Assembly: GCA_017463615.1 (NCBI GenBank)
Contig: JAFTOU010000019.1
Location: 1-38,645, forward strand
Length of the DNA: 38,645 nucleotides
Reading direction: 5' to 3'
DNA from: Alistipes sp.
Lineage (GTDB): Bacteria > Bacteroidota > Bacteroidia > Bacteroidales > Rikenellaceae
The position numbers and the translations under genes are program-made. Positions within the stretch are counted from its first letter, which is position 1. The number at the start of each line of letters is the position of its first letter. Shown one piece after another: positions 1-18,064 of the stretch. A model generated the notes under the pieces. The model saw nothing but the letters and a program-made list of their open reading frames with translations, searched no databases and had not been told where the DNA came from.

Positions 1-48
1 CGACGATGTTTAGGGGTGTGGCTTGCACCGTCGGTTATTCCTTGCACC

Positions 49-178
49 ATTTTATCGTCAAAGTGGTGCAGTTACAACGCTCGGCAAAAAGTGGCAACGA
101 TGGATAGTACTAAAGCGTACAGCCATTGTTGCCACCTTTTTGTTAGCGGAAGTAGATGCGCCGCTATCACGATAAAAT
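49..178. repeat. Nested palindromic intergenic element, copy 1
   Basis: The element is bounded by an inverted repeat, ATTTTATCGTc at 49-59 and cACGATAAAAT at 168-178. Inside is a 13-bp hairpin, GTGGCAACGATGG (91-103) with CCATTGTTGCCAC (123-135), having one G-T wobble. It is flanked by an A-tract on the left and a T-tract on the right, like a bidirectional terminator. The hairpin tip holds GTAC-TAAAGC-GTAC. A further small hairpin, TAGCGG/CCGCTA, lies near 144-166. The right terminal repeat covers the stop codon of lrgB. Copies 2 and 3 share the plan but not the stem sequences. It may act as an lrgB 3' end or be a mobile miniature element. Confidence 0.75.
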
Positions 179-859
179 CCTATCTACTAATGGGAGGAGC
201 AATGCAGTTCCGAAACCAGTGAGAGCCATTGCAAGGCCGGACATGGCGCCCTCTACGGCGCCGAGTTCAATGGCGCGGGCGGTGCCGATGCCGTGGGAGG
301 CTGCTCCAAGGGCGAAGCCGCGAGCCATAGGGTCGGTAACGCCACAGAGTGAGAGGAGTTTTGCACCGCAGATGCTGCCCAGTACGCCTGTACAGAAGAC
401 CACGACGGAGGTCACAGCCACAATGCCACCCAAAGGCTCGCTGACAGCAATAGCGATAGGTACGGAGACCGACTTAGGGGCGATGGAGGTGATTATACTA
501 TGTTCCAGGCCGAAAAGCATAGCGATACCAACCACAAAGCCGATACCTACAACGCACCCAGCCACGGTAGCGCCAAGTACTGGCAGCGTTGCACTCTTAA
601 GTCGCTCCACTTGCTCGTACATAAGGTATCCCAGTGCGACTACTGACATACCGAGGGCGAAGTCCAGCAGAGCGACAGACTTCTTATATGTCTGATAGTC
701 AATATCGGCGAAATTGAGAAACACAATCACAGCCGCAGCGGTAAGCAACACCGGGTGCAGCAGCATAAATCGCGTACGGCGAAAGATGTAGCCACTAAGC
801 AGATAGAGGCCTATGGTCAGGCAGAGCAGGAAAATATCCGAAACAACTATCTCTCTCAT
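167..859 (-). CDS. lrgB: LrgB/CidB family membrane protein
   Basis: This 230-residue polytopic membrane protein belongs to the LrgB/CidB/YohK family, the partner of LrgA. The family was first described as antiholin-like; later work in other bacteria links LrgAB-type pairs to pyruvate uptake and plant homologues to glycolate export. What is seen: several hydrophobic segments, a Gly/Ala-rich C-terminal half with the family-like stretch ALGAASHGIGTARA, and the full usual length. The start ATG (859-857) overlaps the lrgA stop by 4 nt (ATGA), so translation is probably coupled. The last three residues (I-L-S) and the TGA stop are encoded by the terminal repeat of the palindromic element at 49-178. 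Substrate cannot be told from sequence. Confidence 0.9.
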   Translation of the reverse strand: MREIVVSDIFLLCLTIGLYLLSGYIFRRTRFMLLHPVLLTAAAVIVFLNFADIDYQTYKKSVALLDFALGMSVVALGYLMYEQVERLKSATLPVLGATVAGCVVGIGFVVGIAMLFGLEHSIITSIAPKSVSVPIAIAVSEPLGGIVAVTSVVVFCTGVLGSICGAKLLSLCGVTDPMARGFALGAASHGIGTARAIELGAVEGAMSGLAMALTGFGTALLLPLVDRILS

Positions 860-1194
860 TGTCTTTTACGATTTAGCAGTTGAAACACCCACCCTACTGC
901 CACAATAACGGCAAAGGTACTCACAACCGTAGCCACGCTAATAGCCACGATATTATCCATAATAACGCCGTAAGACTCTATCAGTCCAACGCCAAAGGGG
1001 ACAAAGAATAGCGCCATAGTCCCCAGCAAAAACTTAGCCGTTGGTCGCACAGTCTCGCCCTTAACCACACCCGAGCAGAGTAGCGCAAAGAGCAGCAACA
1101 TACCGATAATATTACCCGATATATAGCCATCTATCAGCACCGACAAGCAGTTGCCAACAAGCCAGCAGGCAAGAATTACAAACAGTCCCTTCAT
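856..1194 (-). CDS. lrgA: LrgA/CidA family membrane protein
   Basis: A small protein of about 112 residues with four predicted membrane segments, matching the LrgA/CidA/YohJ family (holin-like fold, partner of LrgB). It sits directly before lrgB with a 4-nt ATGA overlap. Upstream, the end of the beta-galactosidase reads GTGATGA: the lacZ stop TGA is 1196-1194 and an ATG is 1194-1192. I chose that ATG; a GTG at 1197 would add one residue. LrgA and LrgB are expected to form one complex in the inner membrane. It is slightly short for the family, but no segment appears missing. Confidence 0.88.
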   Translation of the reverse strand: MKGLFVILACWLVGNCLSVLIDGYISGNIIGMLLLFALLCSGVVKGETVRPTAKFLLGTMALFFVPFGVGLIESYGVIMDNIVAISVATVVSTFAVIVAVGWVFQLLNRKRQ

Positions 1195-4100
1195 CACTTA
1201 ACAGGTATCAGCACAAACTCAAACTCCTGCTCAGCGTATGGTATTCGGTACTGCTCAAGAGGTATTGCGCCCCAGCTATTCTGGCAGATAATACCCGACT
1301 GAGTCTTATCAATGTTGATATAGGTATTTCCGTCTCGCTCAAGCAGTTGCGGATGCTTGCGGTAGTTGTCCGAAAGAATATCTATCTGGCTGAGCGAGTA
1401 TGGAATAGCGGTTGCGGAGAAGAGCACAGGGGCTACTACCTTGAGTCCACAGCCAGCCTTATCTGTAATCTGCCAGTATCTCAAATCGCAGTGCGCACCC
1501 GACTCCTGAGGACGAACATAGGTCATACAGAACTGCTCATCAACGCTCTGCTTATAGAATCCCACCGGAGTACCGCTCTTACGGTCTACATAGCTCTCCG
1601 AGCCACCTGCACCGTAGAACTCAATAGTGTCAAAACTCTCTGGCATAGCGAAGTAGACGCCATAGCGCAACATTGCCCTGATATCCAACTTATGCTTACC
1701 CGGGCGCATATGCTCCTTAATAGCCACGCGGCCGTTGCTATCAATGGTGTAGGTCATATAGACACGCATACCCAGCTCGCTATAGGAGTATGTGACATTT
1801 ACCTCCACGCAATCGCCCTTCTGCTCCATCAGGAACAGTGCCATCTCGCGCTTAGGGTTGCGGAAGCTCTTCCACGAGTGGTAGTATACGGCATTAGAGC
1901 CTCGCTTGCGCACGCCGTAGTCATTCTCGGTCATCGCGCGGTAGAAGAGCGGCTCTATAGGTTTGGAAATAAGTTGCTTACCTGCAAGGGTGTAACTATC
2001 AATGAAGCCATTGCCCGCAAAGTGAATCTCAAAATCTACGCCGCGAACTATCCTATTGTCGTAGTCCATAGCAAGGGCACCACCGACTGGAAGCATTACT
2101 GCTGCAAGCTGCGTCTGAGCATCATAAGGGGTAAGCACAAACTGGTTATATGCCACGCAGTGACCCTTCTCAAGCAGTGGCTCGTCGCTCTTAAGGGTAT
2201 AACGCACCGTAAGGATAACCTCCCCCTTAAGCGCGCGAATATCAAGCTCCGAGTAGTCCAACTTGATATTCATTCGCATCTGCGCAGGGATATCAAGCCT
2301 CTCAACCGTACCGCTCAGAGCCTTAACGCCGTCGGCAGTGACCTCCCACTCAAGGCGGTAGTTGCTAAGGTCGCGGAACATATACTCGTTGTAGACCTCA
2401 ATGCCGCCATTTTTCAAATCTACGGCAGAGGTCCAGATATTCTGATACTGATGCCACACCTCGCGGGCACTTGGATGCGGAGTGCGAGAGGCGGAGATAA
2501 AGCCGTTGTTGCAGAATGTCTCGTCGCTTGGGTCTACATCGTTGTAGCAGCCTCCATAGCGGTAGATGGACTTGCCCGTCTGAGGGTCTGTCCACGCCAA
2601 TGCTTGGTCTACAAAGTCCCAGATAAATCCACCCTGATAGTGCGGATATTTGCGCACCAAATCCCAGTACTCCTTAAGGCTACCGAGCGAGTTACCCATC
2701 GCGTGTGCATATTCGCACTGGATAAGTGGTCGCTTAGGGTTGTTATTCACATACTTCTCGCACTGGTCGTAGGTCGCATACATCGGACACTCAATATCCG
2801 AGTTGTAGTTCTTAGGCTTGTCGCCGTATGTTACATGGCACGCCTGCTCATACTGCACTGGGCGGCTGCTGTCGTAGCTCTTTATCCAGTCGTAGCAAGT
2901 GTGGAAGTTAGCACCATTGCCAGCCTCGTTGCCTAAACTCCAAACTATTACAGATGGGTGGTTGTAGTCGCGCAACACAACGCGCTGATTACGAACAAGA
3001 TGTGCCTGCTTGTAGCGAGGATGATGTGCAAGACTCTTGTCGCCATAGCCCATACCGTGCGACTCCACATTCGCCTCGTCTACGACATAGATACCATACT
3101 TATCGCACAGGTCGTACCAGAGTGGCGAATCTGGATAGTGGCATGTGCGCACTGCATTGAGGTTATGCTGCTTCATAATCTTTATGTCGCGCACCATATC
3201 CTCGTACTTAACATAGTAGCCGCGCTCTGGGTTCATCTCGTGGCGATTTGCGCCCTTGATAAGCACCGCGCGACCATTTACAAGCAGCTGCGAGCCGATA
3301 ATCTCAACCTTGCGGAAGCCGACATTGAACGCTGCCGCCTCGGTAGGTGTAGAGACGGTGAGCTTGTAGAGGTTTGGAGTCTCGGCACTCCAACTCTTCA
3401 CATCCGCGAGCTTGATAACCGTATTCACCTTGCCCGCCTTTGGGGTAAAGCGTTGCTTATAGAGCGGGTTGTCGTTCTCGTCAGTCAGCAGAGCCTCCAC
3501 CCACTTTACACCCGCCGTTAGCGATACATCAAGCGTCAGCACGCCATCGCGGTACTCATTCTCAAGGTCTGCCACAAACTTAACATCCGCTATATGAGCC
3601 TTGTCGCGGGCATAAATATAGCAGTCGCGGGCAATACCCGAGAGTCGCCAGAAATCTTGGTCCTCAAGATATGAGCCGTCGCACCAACGGTGGCACTCCA
3701 TAGCAAAGAGGTTGCTGCTGCCAGCCTTGATATACTTGGTGATGTCAAACTCAGCCTCCAACTTGCTATCCTCGCTATAGCCCACGCGCTTGCCATTGAC
3801 CCACAGCGCAAGGTTTGAGGTCGCCGAGCCGATATGGACAAATACCTGCTTGCCACGCCACTGCTCAGGGATGTCTATGTAGCGACGGTATCTACCCACA
3901 TGGTTGCGATGCTCAGGAACGAAAGGCGGATTGCTGATATAGGTATTCTTCCACGCATAGCCGTGATTTACATATAGCGGGTCGCCATAGCCGTTCAGCT
4001 CCCAAATACCCGGCACTGGCATCTTGCCCCACTGCGCATCGTTGTACTTTACAGAGTAAAACTCCTCCGCAGGGGCATCGGTCAGATGGTTGTACCAGAT

Positions 4101-4325
4101 AAAGTTCCACTCCCCCTCTATCGTTTGGTAGGCTGGCGCAGCGCGATAACAACTGCCCGCCACAGCCTGAGCAGATGATGGATAGACAATAAAACTTGAA
4201 CGCATAGGCTCACGATTCTGCTCCACAATCGTCGGATCCTCATACGGCTTCACCACACCAGTAGCAGTTGCCGTAGTAGCGGAGAGCAACAATAAACCCG
4301 CAAGTAAAGGTAATACTCGTCTCAT
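1194..4325 (-). CDS. lacZ: Secreted glycoside hydrolase family 2 beta-galactosidase
   Basis: This 1043-residue enzyme would hydrolyse terminal beta-galactosides. An N-terminal signal peptide (basic MRR, then a Leu/Ala-rich core to about residue 22) points to export to the periplasm. Family order is visible: sugar-binding jelly roll (about 60-230), Ig-like domain, TIM barrel from about 340, and the C-terminal small-chain domain. The acid/base Glu lies in SLGNEAGNG near residue 467 and the nucleophile in QCEYAHAMGNS near residue 538, as in E. coli LacZ. Length is normal. It starts a series with lrgA and lrgB. A promoter-like TAACTTTG lies just upstream (minus strand, 4351-4344). The physiological substrate, such as host glycan or plant galactan, cannot be read from the sequence. 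Confidence 0.93.
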   Translation of the reverse strand: MRRVLPLLAGLLLLSATTATATGVVKPYEDPTIVEQNREPMRSSFIVYPSSAQAVAGSCYRAAPAYQTIEGEWNFIWYNHLTDAPAEEFYSVKYNDAQWGKMPVPGIWELNGYGDPLYVNHGYAWKNTYISNPPFVPEHRNHVGRYRRYIDIPEQWRGKQVFVHIGSATSNLALWVNGKRVGYSEDSKLEAEFDITKYIKAGSSNLFAMECHRWCDGSYLEDQDFWRLSGIARDCYIYARDKAHIADVKFVADLENEYRDGVLTLDVSLTAGVKWVEALLTDENDNPLYKQRFTPKAGKVNTVIKLADVKSWSAETPNLYKLTVSTPTEAAAFNVGFRKVEIIGSQLLVNGRAVLIKGANRHEMNPERGYYVKYEDMVRDIKIMKQHNLNAVRTCHYPDSPLWYDLCDKYGIYVVDEANVESHGMGYGDKSLAHHPRYKQAHLVRNQRVVLRDYNHPSVIVWSLGNEAGNGANFHTCYDWIKSYDSSRPVQYEQACHVTYGDKPKNYNSDIECPMYATYDQCEKYVNNNPKRPLIQCEYAHAMGNSLGSLKEYWDLVRKYPHYQGGFIWDFVDQALAWTDPQTGKSIYRYGGCYNDVDPSDETFCNNGFISASRTPHPSAREVWHQYQNIWTSAVDLKNGGIEVYNEYMFRDLSNYRLEWEVTADGVKALSGTVERLDIPAQMRMNIKLDYSELDIRALKGEVILTVRYTLKSDEPLLEKGHCVAYNQFVLTPYDAQTQLAAVMLPVGGALAMDYDNRIVRGVDFEIHFAGNGFIDSYTLAGKQLISKPIEPLFYRAMTENDYGVRKRGSNAVYYHSWKSFRNPKREMALFLMEQKGDCVEVNVTYSYSELGMRVYMTYTIDSNGRVAIKEHMRPGKHKLDIRAMLRYGVYFAMPESFDTIEFYGAGGSESYVDRKSGTPVGFYKQSVDEQFCMTYVRPQESGAHCDLRYWQITDKAGCGLKVVAPVLFSATAIPYSLSQIDILSDNYRKHPQLLERDGNTYINIDKTQSGIICQNSWGAIPLEQYRIPYAEQEFEFVLIPVK

Positions 4326-4343
4326 AGCAAAAGATATTTTCTA

Positions 4344-4351
4344 CAAAGTTA
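4344..4351 (-). promoter_or_regulatory. -7 box upstream of the lacZ-lrgA-lrgB unit
   Basis: The minus strand reads TAACTTTG, matching the Bacteroidetes -7 consensus TAnnTTTG, 18 nt before the lacZ ATG. A T-rich stretch about 20 nt further upstream is a weak -33 candidate without a clean TTTG. Confidence 0.5.
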
Positions 4352-4375
4352 CTATTTTTTTTGATAGCATAAAAT

Positions 4376-4406
4376 TTTGTAGGCTGAAAAAGTTTGCCTA
4401 TCTTTG
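4376..4406 (+). promoter_or_regulatory. Promoter of tRNA-Gln
   Basis: TTTG (4376-4379), a 19-nt spacer and TATCTTTG (4399-4406) form a perfect Bacteroidetes housekeeping promoter. The predicted start at about 4412-4414 leaves about 15 nt before the mature tRNA 5' end. Confidence 0.85.
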
Positions 4407-4428
4407 CACCCGCTTACGAGCACTTGTT

Positions 4429-4499
4429 TGAGCTGTGGTGTAATGGTAACACAGCAGATTTTGGTTCTGTCGTTCTGGGTTCGAGTCCCGGCAGCTCAA
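4429..4499 (+). tRNA. tRNA-Gln (anticodon TTG)
   Basis: A 71-nt cloverleaf can be folded by hand. The acceptor arm is TGAGCTG/CAGCTCA (7 of 7 pairs, with the U1-A72 pair typical of tRNA-Gln). The D arm is GTGT/ACAC, the anticodon arm GCAGA-TTTTGGT-TCTGT with TTG at 34-36, and the T arm CTGGG-TTCGAGT-CCCGG. The CCA end is not encoded. It reads CAA (and CAG by wobble). A promoter lies upstream and a terminator hairpin directly downstream, so it is a single-gene transcript. Confidence 0.96.
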
Positions 4500-4502
4500 C
4501 AC

Positions 4503-4538
4503 ACACAAGCACCCGCAAAAGGGTGCTTGTGTTGTTTT
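4503..4538 (+). terminator. Terminator of tRNA-Gln
   Basis: ACACAAGCACCC (4503-4514) pairs perfectly with GGGTGCTTGTGT (4521-4532) around the loop GCAAAA, followed by a T-rich tail. It begins 4 nt after the tRNA end. Confidence 0.8.
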
Positions 4539-4653
4539 GTATGATTGGTGTAGCCTTCGGCTATAGTTAAAAAGCGATATGCTGGCAAATGAGTAAACTC
4601 AAGCCTGCATATCGCTTTTTTAACACCATCTGCGATGGTACACCAATCATACA
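4538..4653. repeat. Composite palindrome (multi-arm cruciform) behind tRNA-Gln
   Basis: The outer arms are a perfect 15-bp inverted repeat, TGTATGATTGGTGTA (4538-4552) and TACACCAATCATACA (4639-4653). They enclose three hairpins: GCCTTCGGC (4553-4561), a 14-bp AAAAAGCGATATGC/GCATATCGCTTTTT stem (4569-4582 with 4607-4620), and ACCATC-TGC-GATGGT (4625-4639). The central hairpin with its A- and T-tracts could stop transcription in both directions. No coding potential is seen. Confidence 0.75.
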
Positions 4654-4654
4654 C

Positions 4655-4781
4655 TGAGCTGTCGGGATATGTGAAGGGTTACCTCAGTCGTGTATCTCCG
4701 CACCGCGCCAGCGCGACTGCGGCACTCCTTCGGTGATGACGCGCAGTTGGGTTCAACTGCGCGTCATTCGAGTCCCGGCAG
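4655..4781 (+). pseudogene. Possible tRNA-Gln remnant or attachment-like duplication
   Basis: TGAGCTGT at 4655-4662 equals the first 8 nt of the tRNA-Gln gene. The 15 nt TTCGAGTCCCGGCAG at 4767-4781 equal its T loop and acceptor 3' part (4480-4494). The segment between does not resemble a tRNA. It holds CCGCA...TGCGG around 4699-4722 and a perfect 14-bp hairpin (ATGACGCGCAGTTG, loop GGTT, 4736-4767) that ends exactly where the tRNA-like 15-mer begins. This could be a decayed tRNA duplicate or the scar of an element that targeted the tRNA 3' end. Confidence 0.4.
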
Positions 4782-4802
4782 GGCCTATTACACCATTGAC
4801 TT

Positions 4803-5171
4803 CTAAAGTTTTGCTAAGAAGCGGTCGCGGTCTACGATGAAGCGGGTGTGGGTGCCGGAGCCGATGAGGGTGGTGCCGTCGTGGGCTTCAACAGCGAAGG
4901 AGAGCTTGCGGCCCTCTATGGCTGTGAGGGTGGCGGTAGCGGTGATGGTTGCGCCGAGGGCGGAGGCCTTGATATGGCTTGTCTCTACCTGTGTGCCGAC
5001 AGTTGTTTGACCCTCTGTAAGGGCTGGAGCTACGGCATTCATAGCGGCGTTCTCCATAAGGGCTACCATTGCGGGTGTTGCGAAGACATCCATATCGCCA
5101 GAGCCGAGAGTGCGAGCTGTATTTGCCTGGCAAACGGTTGTAGTAGAGGTATAAGTGAGTCCGATTTCCAT
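4803..5171 (-). CDS. FlK-like hotdog thioesterase
   Basis: This 122-residue single hotdog-fold protein resembles fluoroacetyl-CoA thioesterase FlK and its many housekeeping relatives, which hydrolyse acyl-CoA thioesters in the cytosol. The FlK catalytic set (Thr, Glu, His) has plausible matches: Thr32 in FATPAMV, Glu40 in ALMENAA and His66 in TSHIKAS. No signal peptide is seen. It ends beside the tRNA-Gln palindrome region. A TATCTTTG -7 box lies 23 nt before the start codon on the minus strand, back to back with the promoter of the DUF4294 gene. The true acyl-CoA substrate is unknown; fluoroacetyl-CoA is unlikely here. Confidence 0.85.
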   Translation of the reverse strand: MEIGLTYTSTTTVCQANTARTLGSGDMDVFATPAMVALMENAAMNAVAPALTEGQTTVGTQVETSHIKASALGATITATATLTAIEGRKLSFAVEAHDGTTLIGSGTHTRFIVDRDRFLAKL

Positions 5172-5193
5172 AATTTTCGCTATTTTATTTGTG

Positions 5194-5230
5194 CAAAGAT
5201 ACTACTTTGTTCTTGATTTCGTTATCTTTG
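5194..5230. promoter_or_regulatory. Divergent -7 boxes between thioesterase and DUF4294 genes
   Basis: The minus strand carries TATCTTTG at 5201-5194 (thioesterase side) and the plus strand carries TATCTTTG at 5223-5230 (DUF4294 side). No clear TTTG -33 box is seen for either, so the strength is uncertain. The plus box ends only 12 nt before the DUF4294 ATG. Confidence 0.55.
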
Positions 5231-5242
5231 TAGCGAAAAAGT

Positions 5243-5824
5243 ATGCAGAAAAGGCGCTACATATTGCTATTATTACTGTTGCTGCTAATGCTTCCCGCAT
5301 CGGCACAGAGGCGCAGGGAGCGAGCCTATTGGCACAGCGAGTGGGTGGTAGAGAATGGGGACTCAATACCCGTATTCCACCTCACGCCAGTGCGAAAATA
5401 TGCCCGCAAGCCTGATATGCGTCGTTATGCCCGTATGGTCAGGGCGGTAAAGCGTGTCTACCCTATTGCTGAGGAGGCTAAGACGCTGATGGCGAGCATG
5501 GAGAAGGAGCTTGTTGCGCTGCCGAACAAGAAGCAGCAGAAGCTCTATATCAAGGGTATAGAGAAGCGACTTGTGCGCGAGTATACACCAGTTATCAAGA
5601 AGATGACAATTTACGACGGTCGCGTGCTACTAAAACTCATTGACCGCCAGATAGATAACACAGCCTTTGAGATTATCAAAGAGTTTCGCGGAGGCTTTGA
5701 GGCGGGCATTTGGCAGGCGCTTGCTAAGGTCTTTGGCAACAACCTAAAGACCGACTACAACCCCGAGAAAGACGACCAGCTATTGGAACAGATTGTCGTC
5801 CTCTACGAGAAGGGGTTGCTATAA
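5243..5824 (+). CDS. DUF4294 family exported protein
   Basis: This 193-residue protein has a signal peptide (basic MQKRR, a run of Leu, then PASAQ near residue 22), so it is exported. The rest is charged and helical, with the stretch MRRYARMVRAVKRVYPIAEE characteristic of DUF4294, a Bacteroidetes family without known function. The context gives little: it is alone between a thioesterase on the other strand and a convergent phosphodiester glycosidase that ends 10 nt after its stop. The short 5' leader (about 7 nt from the predicted transcription start) suggests near-leaderless translation. Confidence 0.8.
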   Translation: MQKRRYILLLLLLLLMLPASAQRRRERAYWHSEWVVENGDSIPVFHLTPVRKYARKPDMRRYARMVRAVKRVYPIAEEAKTLMASMEKELVALPNKKQQKLYIKGIEKRLVREYTPVIKKMTIYDGRVLLKLIDRQIDNTAFEIIKEFRGGFEAGIWQALAKVFGNNLKTDYNPEKDDQLLEQIVVLYEKGLL

Positions 5825-5834
5825 CAGTTTCTTC

Positions 5835-6695: not shown

Positions 6696-6699
6696 AAGG

Positions 6700-6707
6700 C
6701 AAATGTA
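6700..6707 (-). promoter_or_regulatory. -7 box of the phosphodiester glycosidase gene
   Basis: The minus strand reads TACATTTG, ending 4 nt before the start codon. If used, transcription would begin at or within a few bases of the ATG. Confidence 0.5.
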
Positions 6708-6776
6708 CGAAAAATTTTCGTATCTTCGCGCCGTTATATGGACTTATGTAAATAAGATAATTAAAAGATATAAACT

Positions 6777-8108: not shown

Positions 8109-8248
8109 CCAATAGCCGAAGTAATTTTTAGGTTTTAGGAGAGGAATTACAACGCTACTGAGGAGCGGCAATGGGAGCATAGGAGGAGCTATGTGACCGA
8201 AGGCGCGACGAAGTGAAGGCAGTAATTACCTCATAAAAGCAAAAATTT
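8109..8248. other. ffh-era intergenic region with imperfect palindromes
   Basis: A nearly perfect outer pair, GAGG-AATTAC (8142-8151) and GTAATTACCTC (8221-8231), encloses a CATAG...CTATG hairpin around 8179-8194 and GC-rich purine-heavy DNA. It resembles in style, but not clearly in sequence, the other nested palindromes of this window. No terminator with a T-tract is seen. Confidence 0.4.
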
Positions 8249-9133: not shown

Positions 9134-9134
9134 A

Positions 9135-11135
9135 GTGAGGCGTTTTTTTCACATATTTATAGCCCTTATTGCGCTGCTGAGCACCACAGAGGTAAAGGCT
9201 CAGTATAACCGCGAGTACTTCTTCTGGGTAGGTCGTCAGCAGATGATGGAGAATGAGTTTACGGAGGCTATCCGTACGCTCAATGTTCTATTGCGCTTTG
9301 ACCAGGATGCCTACGAGGGCTACTTCCTGCGCGGCATTGCCAAGTACAATCTTGACGATTTGATTGGTGCCGATGCGGACTTTACTATCGCCATTAACAA
9401 GAACCCCGTCTTTACTACAGCCTATACATATCGCGCCATAACACGCTCAAGATTAGGAAATTACGACGATGCACTCAAGGACTTCCGCGAGGCTATAGAC
9501 CTTCGTCCTGACCTTCCTAACCCCTACTTCAGCCGTGGTGTTACGCGACTACTAAATCAGCAGTTCAAGGATGCGATAGCCGACTTTGACAACTTCATCC
9601 GCTATGAGAAGAAGGTTGCCGATGCCTACATCAACCGTGGCGTGTGCTACCTCTACCTCAAGGATACTGTTCGTGCGTACGAGAACTACGAGACCGCCAT
9701 TCGTACAAACCGCGAGAATCCATCCTCCTACAACCGTCGCGGAGCGCTCTACTTTGAGCAGAAGCGATATGCAGAGGCTGAGGCGGACTTCAACAAGGCC
9801 ATAGAGTGCGACTCTACCATGCCACTCTCCTACTTCAACCGCGCGCTGGTCTACAACGAGACCTCGCGTCCGCAGCTATCGCTCAAGGACCTTGACCGCG
9901 TAATTGAGCTTGACTCTACAAGCTCTATCAGCTACTTCAACCGTGCTATTATCCGCAGCAATATCGGCGATTTGAACCGCGCCTTGGAGGACTACAACAA
10001 GGTGGCTCAGTACTCGCCAAACAATGTGTTGGTATACTACAATCGCGCCATTCTTCGCACTCAGTTAGGCGATATCAAGCAGGCTGTGGAGGACTACACA
10101 CGCGCCATTGAGCTATATCCCGACTTTGCAAATGCCTACTTGGGCCGTAGCCACCTGCGCCATCTGCTCAAGGATAACTCTGGTGCTAAAAAGGACCGCC
10201 AGACTGCCGAGCGTAAGATTGCCGAGTACCGTTCTCGCCTGAGCGACAGCACATACTCCATCTATGCCGACACGACCCAGAAGTTCAACCGTCTGCTCTC
10301 CTTTGAGAGTAAGATTGCTGGCTCGTCGTTTGAGCGTATCAAGAGCCGCGGAGGAGATAAGGGCGATAATATGACCCTGCTGCCGCTCTATCGCTTTACG
10401 ATGCGTAATCGTGACTCTATAGATATTGAGCAGTCTACACGCCGCTTCCACTCGCAGCGTGCCGAGGACTTTATCGCAAATCTTGACAACCCACTGCTCC
10501 AGATTTCGCGCCTTGAGAGCAATATCGCCCCAGATTCGCTTGTGGAGATAAACCACAACTACCGCGAGGCGGTGAAGAGCATTGAGGGCGAGAGTGCTTG
10601 GAAGACCCTCTTTGAGTTGGCTATCAGCGAGTCGCTAATCAAGCAGTATACCAACGCTGTCAATACCTACTCGCAGGCTATTGCCCTCAATCCGTCTAAC
10701 CCATTCCTCTACCTCAATCGCGCAGCAACACAGGCGGAGATGATAGACTTTATCTCCTCTATTGACAACGGCTACCAGCGTATGTCTATAGAGAGTGACC
10801 CGGCTCGTCGTCTGCACAACTCGCACACCCGCACTTACGACTACAGCGAGGCTATATCCGACCTCAATAAGGCTATAAAGCTCCACCCGGGCTTTGCCTA
10901 CGCATACTATAACCGCGCAAACCTCTATGCCCTATCGGGTATGCTACCAGAGGCGGCGGATGACTACACTAAGGCTATTGAGCTCAACCCTCACTTTGCC
11001 GAGGCGTACTACAACCGCGGACTGCTGCAGATATATATGAAGGATACGCGCAAGGGGTGTCTTGATATCTCTAAGGCTGGCGAGCTTGGCATTACAGAGG
11101 CTTATCAGGTGCTGAAAAGTTACTCAAATCAATAA
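9135..11135 (+). CDS. Exported tetratricopeptide repeat protein
   Basis: This 666-residue protein has a signal peptide (MRRFFHIFIALIALLSTTEVKA region) and many TPR units, for example repeats of the type AxxxYNRGxxYxxxxxYxxAxxDFxxAIxxxP from about residue 30 to 360 and again from about 500 to 650. A charged linker lies between. TPR arrays are scaffolds for protein binding; in Bacteroidetes many such proteins act in the periplasm or outer-membrane processes, but no specific partner can be named. It starts with GTG one base after the era stop, which suggests coupling. No catalytic domain is visible. Confidence 0.85.
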   Translation: MRRFFHIFIALIALLSTTEVKAQYNREYFFWVGRQQMMENEFTEAIRTLNVLLRFDQDAYEGYFLRGIAKYNLDDLIGADADFTIAINKNPVFTTAYTYRAITRSRLGNYDDALKDFREAIDLRPDLPNPYFSRGVTRLLNQQFKDAIADFDNFIRYEKKVADAYINRGVCYLYLKDTVRAYENYETAIRTNRENPSSYNRRGALYFEQKRYAEAEADFNKAIECDSTMPLSYFNRALVYNETSRPQLSLKDLDRVIELDSTSSISYFNRAIIRSNIGDLNRALEDYNKVAQYSPNNVLVYYNRAILRTQLGDIKQAVEDYTRAIELYPDFANAYLGRSHLRHLLKDNSGAKKDRQTAERKIAEYRSRLSDSTYSIYADTTQKFNRLLSFESKIAGSSFERIKSRGGDKGDNMTLLPLYRFTMRNRDSIDIEQSTRRFHSQRAEDFIANLDNPLLQISRLESNIAPDSLVEINHNYREAVKSIEGESAWKTLFELAISESLIKQYTNAVNTYSQAIALNPSNPFLYLNRAATQAEMIDFISSIDNGYQRMSIESDPARRLHNSHTRTYDYSEAISDLNKAIKLHPGFAYAYYNRANLYALSGMLPEAADDYTKAIELNPHFAEAYYNRGLLQIYMKDTRKGCLDISKAGELGITEAYQVLKSYSNQ

Positions 11136-11160
11136 CTCAAATTTATAAATATAAACCATT

Positions 11161-12567
11161 ATGACTCAAACAATTCGTAAAAATCTCAACGACCACGCTT
11201 GGGCGCGTTGGACAGCGATGGTTCTCATTGCGCTGATGATGCTCTTTGCGCACATGTTCGTTGATGTAATCTCTCCTATCAAGGAGCTGATTCAGGTTCA
11301 GCGTGGCTGGACATCGGATATCTTCGGCACCTATGCAGGCTCGGAGTATCTGCTCAATGTATGGGGATTCCTTATCGTGGCAGGTATCATTCTTGATAAG
11401 ATGGGTATCCGCTTCACTGGTCTTACATCGGCAATCGTGATGATTATCGGTGCGGCAATCAAGTTCTACGCCGTCTCTGAGGCTTTTATCGGCACTGGCT
11501 TGGAGAGCTGGCTCAACAGCTGGTGGGTAGACTTCCCTGCATCGGCAAAGCTCGCATCGGCAGGCTTTATGATTTTCGGCTGCGGCTGCGAGATGGCAGG
11601 TATTACCGCCTCTAAGGCTATGGCTAAGTGGTTTGAGGGCAAGGAGATGGCTCTGGCTATGGGTCTGGAGATGGCTCTGACCCGCGTGAGCGTGTTCCTT
11701 ATCTTTACAATCTCGCCTCGCCTTGCAGGTATCGGTGGCGCTAACCCTTCGGTAGTTCGCCCTGTGGCATTCTGCCTGGCTCTGCTCTGCATCGGCCTGC
11801 TCTTCTACTCTATCTTCTGCGTTATGGATAAGAAGCTGGATAGCCAGACTGGCGCTGCGGAGAGTGCAGACCCTGAGGAGGAGTTCAAGTTCTCTGATAT
11901 CGGTAAGATTTTCAGTAGCAAGCTCTTCTGGATTGTAGCTATGCTCTGCGTGCTCTACTACTCGGCTATCTTCCCATTCCAGAAGTTCGCAGCAAATATG
12001 CTCCAGAGCAACCTTAACCTGGACGCTACTACCGCTGCCGACATCTTCCGCTGGTTCCCTATCGGTGCCGCTTGCGTTACCCCATTCTTGGGTTGGTATC
12101 TTGACCGTAAGGGTAAGGGCGCAACTATGCTTATCCTCGGTGCACTGCTGATGATTGTCTGCCACTCTATCTTCGCCCTCGTGCTGCCTGCAGTACCAAG
12201 CAAGATTATCGCTTACGCAGCTATCATCCTGCTCGGCGTATCATTCTCGCTCGTTCCTGCAGCCCTCTGGCCATCTGTGCCAAAGATTATGGATAAGCGC
12301 TTCCTCGGTAGCGCATACTCGCTCATCTTCTGGGTGCAGAACTTCGGTCTGAGCTTCACCCCAATGCTTATCGGCTATGTCCTTGAGAAGACCAACCCAG
12401 GTGTAGCAGAGCAGATTGAGGCAGGCGTTACCGGCGTAAACTATAACTATACAGCCCCAATGCTCGTATTCGTTGCCCTCGGCGTTCTGGCACTGCTCTT
12501 CGCACTCTACCTCAAGGCCGACGACCGCCGCAACAACTACGGCCTCGAGCGACCAAATATCCAGTAG
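11161..12567 (+). CDS. Major facilitator superfamily transporter
   Basis: A 468-residue inner-membrane protein with about 12 hydrophobic segments in two halves, a soluble loop with acidic residues near 235-250 between them, and MFS-like basic turns such as DRKGKGATMLILGALL. The substrate is not evident; some relatives are annotated as nitrate/nitrite or sugar-phosphate permeases, but I see no diagnostic motif. It follows the TPR gene by 25 nt, so it may be in the same transcript, and it is followed by a TAGGGTG/CACCCTA terminator. Confidence 0.85.
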   Translation: MTQTIRKNLNDHAWARWTAMVLIALMMLFAHMFVDVISPIKELIQVQRGWTSDIFGTYAGSEYLLNVWGFLIVAGIILDKMGIRFTGLTSAIVMIIGAAIKFYAVSEAFIGTGLESWLNSWWVDFPASAKLASAGFMIFGCGCEMAGITASKAMAKWFEGKEMALAMGLEMALTRVSVFLIFTISPRLAGIGGANPSVVRPVAFCLALLCIGLLFYSIFCVMDKKLDSQTGAAESADPEEEFKFSDIGKIFSSKLFWIVAMLCVLYYSAIFPFQKFAANMLQSNLNLDATTAADIFRWFPIGAACVTPFLGWYLDRKGKGATMLILGALLMIVCHSIFALVLPAVPSKIIAYAAIILLGVSFSLVPAALWPSVPKIMDKRFLGSAYSLIFWVQNFGLSFTPMLIGYVLEKTNPGVAEQIEAGVTGVNYNYTAPMLVFVALGVLALLFALYLKADDRRNNYGLERPNIQ

Positions 12568-12636
12568 GACGGCTGGCTATTGGCTGTTAGCTATTAGCTA
12601 TTGGCTTTTTAGAGGTATCGCCTACGGCGATAGTTT

Positions 12637-12668
12637 TATAGGGTGTAGAGATGCACCCTATTTTTTGT
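12637..12668 (+). terminator. Terminator after the MFS gene
   Basis: TAGGGTG, an 8-nt loop, CACCCTA and then a T-tract. A second small hairpin, TATCGCC-TAC-GGCGATA, precedes it at about 12617-12633. Between the MFS stop and these hairpins lies a short tandem motif (GGCTATT/AGCTATT units, about 12574-12606) without apparent coding role. Confidence 0.65.
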
Positions 12669-12720
12669 TTTCAAAGCACTACCCTATTTTGTCGTCAAAG
12701 TGCGTCAGATAGCACTGTCC

Positions 12721-12930
12721 AATTTGGCGTCAGAAGGGCGTAGATGCAACGCCGCGATTAAGCCGAGCGCAATCAAACTTGTTTGAATTGCCGAGGCGGA
12801 GCGGTGAAGGGTCGCCAAAGGCGAGCCAACGCTCGGCAAAAAATCCCAGCGATGGATAGTACTAAAAGCGTACAGCCATTGCTGGGAGTTTTTGTTAGCG
12901 GCGGCAGGTATGCCCTTATCACGCCAAATT
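12721..12930. repeat. Nested palindromic intergenic element, copy 2 (extended form)
   Basis: The terminal inverted repeat is AATTTGGCGT (12721-12730) with ACGCCAAATT (12921-12930). The shared hairpin is TCCCAGCGATGG (12844-12855) with CCATTGCTGGGA (12876-12887), tip GTAC-TAAAAGC-GTAC, between A- and T-tracts. An extra arm, GCCGAGCG (12762-12769) with CGCTCGGC (12830-12837), contains two sub-hairpins, one being GGTCGCC-AAA-GGCGAGCC. A second left-end-like sequence (ATTTTGTCGTC, 12686-12696) lies just outside. The right repeat lies over the stop of the glycosyltransferase gene. It fills most of the 350 bp between the MFS and glycosyltransferase genes. Confidence 0.75.
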
Positions 12931-14034
12931 AAGCACTTCTGTAATCCTATCACACATCGCACTCCAACTAAATCGTTTGCGCTCGGTGACAATATTCTGG
13001 CGGAAGCGGGTGAGGTTATCGTCCTTGTAGAGGGACTCAATAGAGTCAAGGACGCCTTCAACGGTTGGGGGGCAGACATAGCCGACCCTATCGTCGGGGA
13101 CAATCTCGGGGAGGCCACCGACCTCGGTGACAATCATAGGGGTGCAGAAGTTATAGGCTATCTGTGTCACGCCGCTCTGCGTGGCTGTCTTATAGGGCAG
13201 CACAAGGGCATCGGCGACGGAGAAGTAGTACTTAACATCCTCGTCTGCCACAAATCTATCGTGGAGGATTACCCTATCGCCCAGCGCCTCAAGCAGTGGC
13301 TCGTACTTCTCTTTGCTCTCGTAAAACTCGCCCGCAACGATTAGTTTCAGACCATCGCGGCGCACCTTGCGCCACGCCTCAAGGAGTATATCCAAACCCT
13401 TATACTCGCGCACAAGACCAAAAAAGAGGAGGTAGTCCACATTGGCATCCAACCCCAAGTGACGGCAAGCCTCAGTGCGCTCCACGCGGTTGCCGAAGTT
13501 GGAGAACATCGGGTGTGGCGAGAAGAGTGCAGGGGCTGAGCTGTAGTGCTTCAGCTCACCGTGCACCTGCTCCGACATATAGACAAAGCCATCCACAGCG
13601 CCGAGGTAGTAGTGGTTGAACGGGCGGTCGGTGATATGGTGCTCGTGCGGCTCAACATTATCTATCTGGCAGATGACCTTCGTTACGCCATTTCGGCGAG
13701 CTATACGGGCGATTGTTCCGAAGCAGGGAGCCATAAATGGGGTCCAGTACTTCATCAGCACCATATCGGGAGCCTCGCGGCGGATACGATTGCCGACAGT
13801 TATCCAATTTATTGGGTTACAGGTGTTTACAATGCGCTCTATGTGCAAATCTTTCGGCGCGGGGGTATCTACCGTCTGGCTCTTGCCAGGGAAGAGGAGC
13901 GAGGGGTACTGCAACGAGAAGGTGTAGATTACAACCTCGTCGCCACGCGAGATATACTCTCGCGCCATAGTCTCCATAATTGACGCCAAACCACCACGAT
14001 ACGGGTGCGCAGGTCCAAGAATTACTATCTTCAT
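12919..14034 (-). CDS. Glycosyltransferase family 4
   Basis: A 371-residue GT-B fold enzyme that would transfer a sugar from a nucleotide donor, probably to a surface glycan. Seen: the N-terminal MKIVILGPAHPYRGG acceptor-side motif, FGLVREYKGLDILLEAW at the second Rossmann domain, the Asp-rich VADEDVKYYFSVADALVLPY region, and GLPEIV near the donor site. I chose the ATG at 14034 because it gives the usual GT4 N-terminus; an upstream in-frame ATG would add 20 unrelated residues. Its last residues (N-L-A) and TGA stop are read from the terminal repeat of the element at 12721-12930. It stands alone, away from the polysaccharide operon. Confidence 0.9.
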   Translation of the reverse strand: MKIVILGPAHPYRGGLASIMETMAREYISRGDEVVIYTFSLQYPSLLFPGKSQTVDTPAPKDLHIERIVNTCNPINWITVGNRIRREAPDMVLMKYWTPFMAPCFGTIARIARRNGVTKVICQIDNVEPHEHHITDRPFNHYYLGAVDGFVYMSEQVHGELKHYSSAPALFSPHPMFSNFGNRVERTEACRHLGLDANVDYLLFFGLVREYKGLDILLEAWRKVRRDGLKLIVAGEFYESKEKYEPLLEALGDRVILHDRFVADEDVKYYFSVADALVLPYKTATQSGVTQIAYNFCTPMIVTEVGGLPEIVPDDRVGYVCPPTVEGVLDSIESLYKDDNLTRFRQNIVTERKRFSWSAMCDRITEVLNLA

Positions 14035-14111
14035 ATCAAAATCTTTCCGTAAAGGTACAAAAAAAGAGAGCAGATTCCAAAAATCTGCCCCCATTTTCTA
14101 TCATCACAACC

Positions 14112-14840
14112 CTATCGCCACTCAAACGATGCTCGGCAAGCCGCCACACCATCCTCGCGCGTAATCTCAAAGAGGGTCGTATTCTCCACCACCTGCATAC
14201 CCACCTTGAGCGTCTGCCCAAAGAGGCACTCGTGCATAAAGTGCACATCCAGACGGAACGGGCGGTTCTGCTTGAGGTACTCAATCGGCAGCATATCAAC
14301 CATCAGGGCGATGTAGCGCATGGTGTTCATGTGGTTGTTGAAGTCAATGTCACTGTAGACAATCTTGTGCTCGCGCGTCACCTCCGCCTCAATGGCCGTC
14401 AGTCGGCGTGGCTGCTCGCACGGAGACTCCACAAGGCTGACATAGGGCTCAAACATCTCCTCAATAGTATTGAGCGCCACCGGCACACGCTTCACATAGT
14501 CCAACATACACCACTGCGAAAGCGAACGAACAAACACATTGCCCTCCATATCCGACAGCGTAAAGTTACGCGTTGAGAGCAACCTGGCATTGTGATTTAC
14601 CCATGTTGTAAGGTCAAATTCTGCAAACTGCTCAGGACGCGAATCCACCTCAATAACAAACTTTGAGAGCACCCATGTGCGGTTAAGCGGCGTGAGCGCA
14701 TCCACACCAAAACCCTTTCCCTGCGCATCTATACCCGCAGTATTGAGGATATAGTTACCCAGCGAGTCAATGGTCGCACGCAGCGTAAAATCAACATTCT
14801 GCGTCGCCACCTGATAACGATATGTAGTCTGATTTTTCAT
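14112..14840 (-). CDS. Acyl-ACP thioesterase (FatA/FatB type)
   Basis: A 242-residue double-hotdog enzyme that releases free fatty acids from acyl carrier protein. The N-terminal hotdog ends near residue 140. The C-terminal hotdog begins with DIDFNNHMNTMRYIALMVD, which matches the Asn-x-His-x-Asn active-site loop of plant and bacterial acyl-ACP thioesterases. Length fits the bacterial branch. A perfect promoter (TTTG, 19 nt, TATCTTTG, minus strand 14875-14845) ends 4 nt before the ATG, so the message is probably leaderless. It lies 77 nt upstream of the glycosyltransferase and the two may share a transcript. Confidence 0.92.
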   Translation of the reverse strand: MKNQTTYRYQVATQNVDFTLRATIDSLGNYILNTAGIDAQGKGFGVDALTPLNRTWVLSKFVIEVDSRPEQFAEFDLTTWVNHNARLLSTRNFTLSDMEGNVFVRSLSQWCMLDYVKRVPVALNTIEEMFEPYVSLVESPCEQPRRLTAIEAEVTREHKIVYSDIDFNNHMNTMRYIALMVDMLPIEYLKQNRPFRLDVHFMHECLFGQTLKVGMQVVENTTLFEITREDGVAACRASFEWR

Positions 14841-14844
14841 ACCG

Positions 14845-14875
14845 CAAAGATAGCAAAAATTTACGGAACAGCAAA
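14845..14875 (-). promoter_or_regulatory. Promoter of the acyl-ACP thioesterase gene
   Basis: On the minus strand TTTG (14875-14872), a 19-nt spacer and TATCTTTG (14852-14845) match the Bacteroidetes consensus exactly. The predicted start falls on or beside the ATG at 14840. Confidence 0.8.
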
Positions 14876-14881
14876 TTTTGC

Positions 14882-14923
14882 CGTTGGCTCGTCTACGACG
14901 ACCCTTCCTCCTCGCGGCTCGGC
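14882..14923 (-). repeat. Partial copy of the palindromic element arm
   Basis: Read on the minus strand, this segment matches the extra arm of copy 2 (12790-12831): GCCGAG, then GAAGGGTCG, then CGAGCCAACG, with a hairpin GGTCGTC-GTA-GACGAGCC where copy 2 has GGTCGCC-AAA-GGCGAGCC. The stem change is compensatory. Terminal repeats and the TAAAGC hairpin are absent. The remaining gene-free DNA to 15060 holds a GTCGCT-GAAGCGAC hairpin (about 14980-14995) and a short GGTGTTAG direct repeat (about 15030-15055). Confidence 0.5.
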
Positions 14924-15067
14924 ATAGTCTGCAAGCAGTCTCTGCTCTCGCTCCGCAGCGTCGGTTGGCTATTCATAGGTGTCGCTGAAGCGACAAGTAT
15001 TGAGGGGGGGGGTGCGGAGAGTTCCCAAAGGTGTTAGAGTTATTAGAGGTGTTAGGGCACTACGCAA

Positions 15068-15097
15068 CAATAGCGAGAGCCTGAACTCTCGCTATTG
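15068..15097 (-). terminator. Hairpin after the small lipoprotein gene
   Basis: A perfect 12-bp stem, CAATAGCGAGAG and CTCTCGCTATTG, with a 6-nt loop, lies 16 nt beyond the stop. There is no T-tract, so it may stop transcription weakly or protect the 3' end. Confidence 0.5.
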
Positions 15098-15112
15098 ATT
15101 AGGTACTAATTG

Positions 15113-15667
15113 CTACTTAAACAAGTTTAACAAATCTCTTTCAAACTTTCCAGTAGAAACACATGCCTCCTTAGCTGGTATCTCTTGTAAATACTTTTTG
15201 AATGTAAGAGTGTTTAGTATCTCTAAAATACGGATACCTTGCATTCCTCCTAAATTCACACTGATTGAAGTTTTAGTATCATCAACCTTTCTTACTCTAA
15301 CATTAAATGAGCAGGTCGCTTTGTTTCCAACGCATTTGCAGCCATTATATTTATTGAGATAAGGTAAAACAAACCATGCGTTATCATTCTGTAGTTTTCC
15401 ATACTCATCCTCCATTGTTACTAATGATTCTCCAATATTTACCGCATTTGCAACAATGATACCACTATCTTTTTCCAAGACTCCTATGGGCAGATTATTC
15501 ATCGCAAAGAAATCTATTACATTAGCCCAAACAGCATCATAAGGGGTATTAGTCTCTACCGAGTTACTAATAGGATAGCTGCTTTTAAGAGTGAGCAATG
15601 GTGCAGAACAAGAATTAAAACACAATACTGCCGTACACAACAACACCAGTCCAAAAATCTTTTTCAT
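15113..15667 (-). CDS. Small lipoprotein of unknown function
   Basis: A 184-residue protein with a lipoprotein signal: MKKIFGLVLLCTAVLCFNSC, with Cys20 as the likely lipidated residue. The mature part begins SAPLLTLKSSYPISNSVETNTPYDAVWANVIDFFAMN and has a predicted mixed alpha/beta pattern with KDSGIIVANA, which resembles the small envelope domains in which a substrate-free alpha/beta fold follows a conserved Trp helix. I do not recognise a family with confidence. Its DNA is more AT-rich than the flanking genes. It lies directly downstream of the candidate structured RNA, with a hairpin (15684-15725) between them and no convincing promoter of its own, so it may be transcribed by read-through from the RNA promoter. 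Confidence 0.75.
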   Translation of the reverse strand: MKKIFGLVLLCTAVLCFNSCSAPLLTLKSSYPISNSVETNTPYDAVWANVIDFFAMNNLPIGVLEKDSGIIVANAVNIGESLVTMEDEYGKLQNDNAWFVLPYLNKYNGCKCVGNKATCSFNVRVRKVDDTKTSISVNLGGMQGIRILEILNTLTFKKYLQEIPAKEACVSTGKFERDLLNLFK

Positions 15668-15683
15668 AATTTTTTGATATTTA

Positions 15684-15725
15684 AGTTAAACATAAGTGGC
15701 TGCCTCAGATGGCAACCGTTTAACT
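15684..15725 (-). other. Hairpin between structured RNA and lipoprotein start
   Basis: AGTTAAAC and GTTTAACT form 8 outer pairs, enclosing TGCC-TCAGAT-GGCA. It lies 17 nt before the lipoprotein ATG and directly after the U-tract of the structured RNA. It could fold in a read-through transcript and affect translation or stability. Confidence 0.5.
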
Positions 15726-15726
15726 C

Positions 15727-15919
15727 AAAAAAAGAAAAACGCGGGTCACGCTTAATACTGAAGGTACGACCAAGCACCCATACACATAAGCACAACCCAC
15801 GCCGTATATACCAGCGTGAGCATTTAGCGTGCCTATTGCTTGTGTACTTGAATAAATTGGTCGTTTTTCAGTATAGCAACAGCCTAAATGCCATCTAAAG
15901 AACTGCGTATCCCGCAATC
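15727..15919 (-). ncRNA. Candidate rod-shaped structured RNA, about 180-190 nt
   Basis: On the minus strand, a perfect promoter predicts a start near 15918-15920. The 5' end GCGGGATACGC (15915-15905) pairs with the 3' end GCGTGACCCGC (15751-15741), which runs directly into GTTTTTCTTTTTTT (15740-15727). Inside, TTCAGTAT/ATACTGAA and CGACCAA/TTGGTCG stems (15857-15874 with 15755-15773), TACACA/TGTGTA with AGCA/TGCT (15837-15846 with 15781-15792) and an apical CACGC/GCGTG hairpin (15798-15818) stack into a rod. One strand has a roughly 30-nt bulge (15875-15904). Size and closed-rod shape recall 6S RNA; an attenuator leader of the next gene is the alternative. A 65-codon reading frame exists across it but looks incidental. 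Confidence 0.65.
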
Positions 15920-15924
15920 CATCA

Positions 15925-15955
15925 CAAAGATAGTCAAATTTAATCTAATTACAAA
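15925..15955 (-). promoter_or_regulatory. Promoter of the structured RNA
   Basis: On the minus strand TTTG (15955-15952), a 19-nt spacer and TATCTTTG (15932-15925) match the consensus exactly. Confidence 0.85.
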
Positions 15956-15990
15956 GCGATAAAGCTATTTTTTTGCTTTTATCCGTGAGT

Positions 15991-16040
15991 CCGAACACCG
16001 AACGAACAAGGGTGTTCGCATTTCCGAACAAAACCGAACG
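15991..16040. promoter_or_regulatory. Cluster of CCGAACR repeats upstream of the structured RNA promoter
   Basis: CCGAACA (15991-15997), CCGAACG (15998-16004), CCGAACA (16024-16030) and CCGAACG (16034-16040) lie in 50 bp, ending 36 bp from the -33 box. GAACACC and GGTGTTC (about 15993-15999 with 16011-16017) can also form a hairpin. They could be regulator binding sites or part of a repeat; neither is proven. Confidence 0.4.
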
Positions 16041-16046
16041 CTGCCC

Positions 16047-16173
16047 GTTTTATCGTCAGAGTGGTGTAGGTGCGGTATATCGTGAGAAATCCCCGGATGG
16101 GACATACTAAAGCGTATTTCCCATTCGGGGATTTGAGGGATGTGCAGCTAATGCCGCCTTTTCACGGCAAAAC
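16047..16173. repeat. Nested palindromic intergenic element, copy 3
   Basis: The terminal inverted repeat is GTTTTATCGT (16047-16056) with ACGGCAAAAC (16164-16173), two mismatched positions. The central stem is ATCCCCGGATGGGA (16089-16102) with TCCCATTCGGGGAT (16119-16132). The tip is ATAC-TAAAGC-GTAT, where copies 1 and 2 have GTAC/GTAC, again a compensated change. It directly abuts the stop codon of the AspT-type transporter gene. Confidence 0.72.
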
Positions 16174-17892: not shown

Positions 17893-18064
17893 CCTAACAT
17901 TCTATAAATAAACACATTTAGCCAATCTATAAATAACAAAAATTATCTTCAATATTGATTTTCATAACACTTTTACCCAACTTTGCAGACGAAAAAGGTC
18001 GGTTTCAATCAAGCAACAGCAAAAAAAAATGTCTGCAAAACTGCACAACCTGCGAAAAGTTTGC

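Follow-up and report, generated by a model that had tools for sequence, protein, structure and literature searches.

R1, a strand-specific intergenic palindrome in contact with stop codons in Alistipes: a probable structure-dependent mobile element

Background

Dispersed palindromes are common in bacteria. The locus analyzed here is a 38,645-nt stretch of DNA (contig JAFTOU010000019.1, assembly GCA_017463615.1, from Alistipes sp.; hereinafter, the window), in which a preliminary description recorded three nested intergenic palindromes and concluded that selection acts on their structure, as RNA or as cruciform DNA. All three are indeed present (Table 1), with the ATGG/CCAT upper stem, the TAAAGC or TAAAAGC apical loop, and lower stems that are altered from copy to copy yet remain paired. 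They belong to a family of approximately 130-nt elements, here denoted R1, with two types that are separated by a short motif. The members fold preferentially on one strand, mostly abut stop codons of oppositely oriented genes and seem to take the place of the terminators of these genes, and we examine below whether they are best understood as mobile elements.

A family of palindromes with a conserved fold on one strand

BLAST comparison of copy 1 with its own genome (G000, a draft of 2.38 Mb in 67 contigs, 93% complete) produced 45 matches. A covariance-model search yielded many more: a model built from 35 type-1 copies of G000 gave 146 matches, which reduce to 134 places once the matches to both strands of one palindrome are merged; the true number is slightly lower because some places are fragments at contig ends (C35, C65 and C52) and one pair has identical flanks (C52:6122 and C57:3026). 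Contigs C53 and C28 start with an identical stretch of 48 bases followed by R1, and contigs C65 and C35 start inside R1, so breaks in this assembly fall in R1-type repeats.

In the alignment of the 35 type-1 copies, both sides have changed in 21 of the 45 base pairs, 97.4% of the pair cells are paired (85.9% in shuffled alignments), and there are 185 double-change cells compared to 59.2 in the shuffles. The covariation score, 0.333 against 0.120 for the shuffled data, exceeds those of all 500 shuffles and of all six versions in which the partners were slid (at most 0.063), and the weakest of the five measures of covariation, the number of further pair types (49 against 41.3), was reached by one of the 500 shuffles. 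The copies compared are paralogs and the structure was drawn from the same copies, so that this is no formal test, though the effect is large. Compensation extends to the terminal repeats: the outermost helix (helix 1) varies in sequence, with the differences among copies compensated, and 98.3% of its cells are paired, almost all of these by Watson-Crick pairs. Covariation thus strongly supports selection on the folding of R1.

The fold, moreover, belongs to one strand. When stability is calculated with RNA parameters, the more stable strand is the one antisense to the neighboring gene (the plus strand of R1) in 130 of the 131 copies compared, that is, in 74 of the 75 of type 1 and in all 56 of type 2, and with DNA parameters, in all 131; three short places were left out here and in the tests of flanking hairpins, target duplication and attC cores described below. 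In three other species, the antisense strand folds better in 54 of 55 places, which remain from 91 matches after removal of the opposite-strand matches to the same place. The imperfect pairs on the antisense strand are G.U in 88 cells and A.C in 16 (alignment A2), one conserved wobble pair, G.U in 30 of the 35 copies, supplying 30 of the 88. Given this strand preference and the predominance of G.U over A.C, a strand-symmetric cruciform is not enough to account for the conservation, and of the preliminary proposal it is selection on folding that stands and the cruciform that proves insufficient. An additional hairpin formed by the upstream TGCACC flank and the left box of R1 was considered and rejected, the mean complementary run being 4.17 compared to 4.10 (standard deviation 0.08) for shuffled flanks (n=131).

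Contact with stop codons

When genes are called by a simple open reading frame (ORF) rule, 122 of the 134 places have, close to the right end of R1, the 3' end of an ORF of 90 codons or more on the opposite strand, and in 102 of the 134 the stop codon of this ORF ends between -12 and +6 nt from the edge of the element. The distances are concentrated at -1 (33 places), -2 (14), 0 (12), -12 (12), +1 (11) and -7 (9). In the -12 and -7 classes, the stop codon is supplied by R1 itself. In the most frequent class, -1, the outermost pair of R1 includes the last base of the stop codon, and the pair is complementary in 31 of the 33 cases, a feature that may point to cleavage inside the stop codon; RelE-like cleavage of the mRNA at this codon is a conceivable explanation of the class. 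There is no such contact at the other end of R1: apart from one overlap, the distance to the same-strand stops detected in a span of 400 nt is 13-388 nt. Contact in the same range was found in other species as well, for 8 of 9 copies in the related genome G028 and 10 of 14 in G189. Simple targeting of the TAA, TAG or TGA sequence is disfavored because, by eye, most of the copies located elsewhere than at gene ends lack these triplets in front of them.

Orientation along the replicating chromosome

In contigs of G000 that contain three or more places, 114 of 119 places have the majority orientation of their contig; the counts in the two orientations are 27/0, 22/0 and 16/1 for the three contigs with the most places, and 0/8, 0/7 and 1/9 for contigs of the other kind. 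A similar bias is seen in another species, G039 (81 of 90). On the favored strand, defined by the majority orientation of the elements in the contig, 41 of 89 free gene ends carry the element, compared to 1 of 52 on the other strand (Fisher P 2e-9), a count that comes from 21 stretches of G000, namely the window and 20 stretches picked for containing elements, so that 41 of 89 overstates the genome-wide share. For the 49 elements with two called neighbors, the downstream gene is on the opposite strand in 45.

The sole independent support for the replicational meaning of the favored strand, an imperfect one, is GC skew. It is negative in 11 of 12 stretches with plus-oriented elements and positive in six of nine stretches with minus-oriented ones, and in G039 it agrees with the orientation of the elements in five of six contigs. 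If the G-rich strand is taken as leading, the favored genes are leading-strand genes, and the well-folding strand of R1 lies on the leading-strand template.

Distribution and novelty

In the genus, R1 matches are present in 37 of the 61 sampled genomes, including the source genome, with one or a few up to at least 56 matches each; the numbers in relatives are lower bounds, the best 56, 17 or 11 candidates having been scored per genome. At the level of the family, 57 of 200 genomes and three of 22 genera have matches, and at the level of the order, two of 295 genomes do, one being the source genome and the other containing three weak matches (38-40 bits). Relatives thus do carry further copies, and the stem changes in the 35-copy alignment from G000 are compensated, so that neither of the two conditions named in the preliminary description as refuting it holds. 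An exact 22-base core pattern occurs in 25 stretches of the named reference genomes, which come from seven Alistipes or Rikenellaceae metagenome-assembled genomes (MAGs); five of these MAGs have a host in the title, that is, cattle, sheep, goat or water deer. No viral contig matched one R1 core pattern exactly, and positions 1-6000 of the window had no near match among plasmids.

At the gathering score, the sole Rfam match in the whole window is a tRNA located elsewhere, and a permissive scan of positions 1-260 gave four matches, all far below the gathering scores. R1 is not described in the open-licence literature searched on palindromic and intergenic repeats of Alistipes and Bacteroidales and on palindromes with stop-codon or strand bias.

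Turnover at gene ends and the fate of native terminators

At the three window sites, none of the close relatives looked at (7, 8 and 8 genomes) has a full R1, the LrgB site of G189 being unclear; the exception among these relatives is G172, with remnant-like ends of R1 3' of the permease gene. In G043 and G020, an R1 match abuts a related permease gene (55-56% identity), and one was seen by eye in G058. Other gene ends differ between species in their elements. At one, G000 has a type-2 R1 and RGIG1781 a type-1 R1, and G028 lacks the element; at a second, R1 is present in G000 but absent from G028; a third bears three different elements in three species; and at a fourth, the element is common to G028 and G189.

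A comparison of orthologous gene ends covered 38 elements and 80 ends; at protein identity of at least 75%, 21 ends look R1-like and 44 do not, although decayed copies may count as lacking R1 both here and in the terminator comparison. In 20 of the 44 (orthologs of 13 genes of G000), an intrinsic terminator is located 0-43 nt after the stop codon; one of the 20, the L217 terminator, resembles a reduced R1 hairpin. A search of the 900 nt that follow the gene in G000 detected the native terminator behind R1 in none of the 20 comparisons, with the reservation that at C53:49 only 48 nt exist behind R1, so that the loss is not really assessable there. In the direction of the gene, the R1 hairpin is followed by a run of five or more T in 63 of the 75 type-1 copies and 28 of the 56 type-2 copies. 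As far as sequence comparison goes, R1 seemingly takes the place of the genes' own terminators.

The intergenic space behind R1, in the sense of the gene, is a patchwork of other repeats that frequently follow one another in the same order (for instance, at C64:105283 and C36:5050). These include the repeats GGTGCAAGGAATA.., TATTAAAGGCTATTAAGGGT.., GACGCTGCGGAGCGAG.. and GGTGTCGGCAAGCCGACA.., as well as AGCCAATAGC heptamers; several are inverted repeats, and they too are oriented, less strictly than R1. Possibly, they represent older families of elements. In addition, units of approximately 25-40 nt that resemble only the left end of R1 are found in tandem beside full copies (C64:21844, C64:264416, C51:216495 and C64:105283), as if they were leftovers of replaced elements.

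What kind of element is R1?

The many copies, their patchy occurrence and stacking, the replaced sites, the lack of a target duplication (see below) and the conserved single-strand fold lead us to regard R1, with some reserve, as probably a non-autonomous, structure-dependent mobile palindrome of approximately 130 bp that is read as folded single-stranded DNA (ssDNA). By analogy, it is best seen as working like REPINs, the elements made of repetitive extragenic palindromic (REP) sequences, or like the attC sites of integrons, while being a member of neither. Under this scheme, the antisense strand would be recognized, as is the case for attC sites and REPs, as folded ssDNA by a putative recombinase or transposase; new copies would enter between the stop codon and the terminator and would be tolerated because the inner hairpin with its T-run can end the transcript; and older copies, together with other repeats, would end up further out or decay. 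The uniform orientation could then reflect a coupling of insertion to the replication fork or, alternatively, the loss of copies that have the opposite orientation.

Several observations weigh against this interpretation. No mobilizer was found for R1: the Y1 transposase domain of the REP-associated tyrosine transposases (RAYT; PF01797) is absent from all 24 genomes searched (the source genome and 23 relatives; of the 24, 12 are R1-rich and 12 are without or nearly without R1), compared to 5 positives among 14 controls, which leads us to reject a RAYT or IS200 mobilizer, and no longer, gene-carrying copy appeared among the BLAST matches of copy 1, a search not dedicated to that purpose. The evidence of turnover includes no recent insertion between near-identical strains. 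With respect to the stop codon, 32 of the 134 copies in G000 are outside the contact range, contact in G039 is limited to 14 of 32 copies, with nine more located directly behind another copy, and we know of no ssDNA element that targets stop codons so precisely. With respect to orientation, four of the 49 downstream neighbor genes run in the direction of R1, GC skew is near zero (-0.008 to -0.003) in three of the nine stretches with minus-oriented elements, and one of the six contigs of G039 disagrees. Finally, half of the type-2 copies have no run of five T in the direction of the gene, and a simple terminator scan of positions 1-18000 of the window (20 hits compared to 15.0 in shuffled sequence) named none of the three R1 hairpins. 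A more specific version of the mobile scheme, in which R1 represents an undescribed class of mobile DNA, an ssDNA-folding palindrome that inserts precisely where the stop codon of co-replicational genes lies, takes over the terminator and is moved by a putative recombinase, is put forward only tentatively, as a possibility that we consider rather doubtful.

An alternative, unlikely in our estimate, is that R1 is a functional RNA or insulator, such that its plus-strand hairpin, transcribed antisense, stops head-on or convergent transcription at the borders of co-replicational genes and is kept by selection. The conserved fold being that of the antisense strand and the facing of R1 toward the ends of genes on one strand fit this idea, as does the run of five T that follows the hairpin in the plus direction in 58 of the 75 type-1 copies; however, such a run is found in only 18 of the 56 type-2 copies. 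Furthermore, among the 45 elements whose downstream gene is on the opposite strand, only 17 have a convergent gene on the other side and 28 do not, so there is often no obvious transcription of the plus strand of R1, and the patchy occurrence of the element and its many tandem-gene contexts stay unexplained.

Still less probable is an ordinary miniature inverted-repeat transposable element (MITE) of a DDE transposase, with strand bias and stop-codon contact produced by selection after insertion. Terminal inverted repeats, a length of approximately 130 bp and many copies are what would be expected of a MITE. However, the mean longest flanking repeat is 2.44 nt, compared to 2.45 for shuffled sequence (n=131), so there is no sign of a target duplication, and the terminal repeats vary with compensation, unlike the fixed sites of a transposase, while the precision of the stop-codon contact is hard to reach by selection alone. 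Purely mechanical compensation, in which one arm is recopied from the other in replication (quasi-palindrome correction) without structural selection, would suit the variable and almost completely paired outermost helix but would remove the conserved G.U pair together with the asymmetry of the internal loops and the difference between the strands, and is highly improbable.

Relationship to known repeats and recombination sites

MITE-like repeats, such as ERIC, Correia and RUP, are approximately 100-170 bp in length, contain inverted repeats and occur in many intergenic copies. R1 differs from them, by comparison of descriptions rather than sequences, in the lack of a target duplication, in its strand-specific orientation and in the contact with stop codons. 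Like an intrinsic terminator, R1 is a hairpin directly 3' of a gene, preceded by an A-run and, in many though not all copies, followed by a T-run; it differs in being a repeated 130-nt family with two outer stems and a conserved fold of the antisense strand, and its three window copies are missed by a simple scan.

The attC sites are located directly behind genes. No attC core (RYYYAAC or GTTRRRY) was detected in any of the 131 copies of R1 in the gene sense, or on the other strand, with 0.2 expected from shuffles. The integron integrase (TIGR02249) was not found above the cut-off in any of the 24 genomes, sub-threshold matches being present in all 24 and in all 14 controls, and the copies of R1 are dispersed over the genome rather than gathered in a cassette array; hence we reject membership of R1 among the attC sites. 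The likeness lies in the fold: in attC sites of the VCR (Vibrio cholerae repeat) type, the bottom strand is folded and structure is independent of sequence (PMC5371416), and in R1, it is likewise the bottom strand that folds. In sedentary integrons, attC bottom strands are on the leading-strand template, as in R1, in 25 of 30 cases (PMC5371416).

The REPs resemble R1 as dispersed intergenic palindromes located mostly 3' of genes, for which mobility as ssDNA has been proposed; according to the literature on REPs (PMC3733652, PMC6006769, PMC12306157), 446 of the 4,072 predicted REPs of E. coli are within 15 nt of a stop codon, and repeats of the CGTC super-family are reported also in Bacteroidetes, where they have no known transposase. 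REP units are 20-40 bp in length and those of E. coli are present in similar numbers on both strands, whereas R1 is a single nested hairpin of approximately 130 nt with a pronounced strand bias. The REPs also have an unpaired GTAG/CGTC foot, whereas in R1, as judged from the alignment rather than with a REP-finding program, CGTC is inside the paired base stem, and their RAYT partner has no counterpart in the 24 genomes searched. A further candidate for comparison is HMP2_4205 (Fremin and Bhatt 2021, PMC8040213), one of the palindromic candidate structured RNAs listed there for Bacteroidetes of human microbiomes; it is 132 bp in length, much like R1, and a predicted terminator. The likeness is one of description, and the two may or may not belong to the same family.

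The copies in the window

The features of the window are compiled in Table 1. As plus-strand RNA, copy 1 has a predicted folding energy of -65.4 kcal/mol (z -11.2), copy 3 of -56.6 kcal/mol (z -6.4) and the right part of copy 2 (12800-12930) of -61.1 kcal/mol (z -5.8), none of the 200 dinucleotide shuffles being as good in any of the three cases. Copy 3 represents a second inner subtype, which has another middle part but ends and a tip of the kind seen in the other copies. Folded alone, the left part of copy 2 (12721-12850) is unexceptional (z -1.4; equaled by 14 of 200 shuffles). Copy 2 is 210 nt in length because a piece of a different repeat sits inside it; without the insert, it would be as long as copy 1. 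The insert is bracketed by CAACG direct repeats at 12747-12751 and 12827-12831, and positions 12747-12831 have many matches at 91-96% identity in relatives, among the matches listed; judging from these features, the insert resembles a small mobile element in its own right, flanked by a target duplication of 5 bp. The short match to the left end of R1 upstream of copy 2 is possibly a remnant, and at its E value a chance match is possible as well.

Table 1. Coordinates of R1 copies, associated repeats and adjacent genes in the window
Feature	Position	Strand	Remarks
R1 copy 1 (type 1)	49..178	+	130 nt; the final codons and TGA stop of the LrgB gene come from its right end
R1 copy 2 (type 1)	12721..12930	+	130 nt plus 80-nt insert; covariance-model match 12810-12930; the final codons and TGA stop of the glycosyltransferase gene come from its right end
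R1 copy 3 (type 2)	16047..16173	+	immediately 3' of the TAG stop of the permease gene
Piece of a different repeat	12752..12831		80 nt, one CAACG counted in; inside copy 2
Match to left end of R1	12686..12702	+	17 nt, 94%, E 1.75
LrgB-like protein gene (PF04172)	167..859	-	3' end formed by copy 1
Glycosyltransferase gene (PF13692)	12919..14094	-	3' end formed by copy 2
Asp-Al_Ex permease gene (PF06826, TrkA_C)	16174..17892	-	copy 3 directly after the gene

The block 12919-14840, which includes the glycosyltransferase gene and the next gene, is inverted relative to its neighbors in G027, G189 and G028 compared to G000, and this inversion is close to an R1 site. Positions 18502-21474 encode a protein of 990 amino acids with BspA-type leucine-rich repeats (PF13306), likely the source of the direct repeats at 19625-19920.

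Implications

The contact with stop codons, the replication-strand bias and the replacement of native terminators were all absent from the preliminary description of these palindromes. To our knowledge, which on this point extends to the open-licence literature, no other dispersed palindrome joins stop-codon contact, near-complete specificity for one replication strand and covariation on a fixed strand. Should R1 be mobile, it would be a natural system that finds the ends of genes, and the enzyme behind it would deserve a search. Should it be immobile, the roughly one hundred structured elements located where co-directional genes end would amount to an unrecognized layer of control over transcript ends in gut Alistipes. 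The number of copies of R1 makes the choice between mobility and transcript-end control a testable one.

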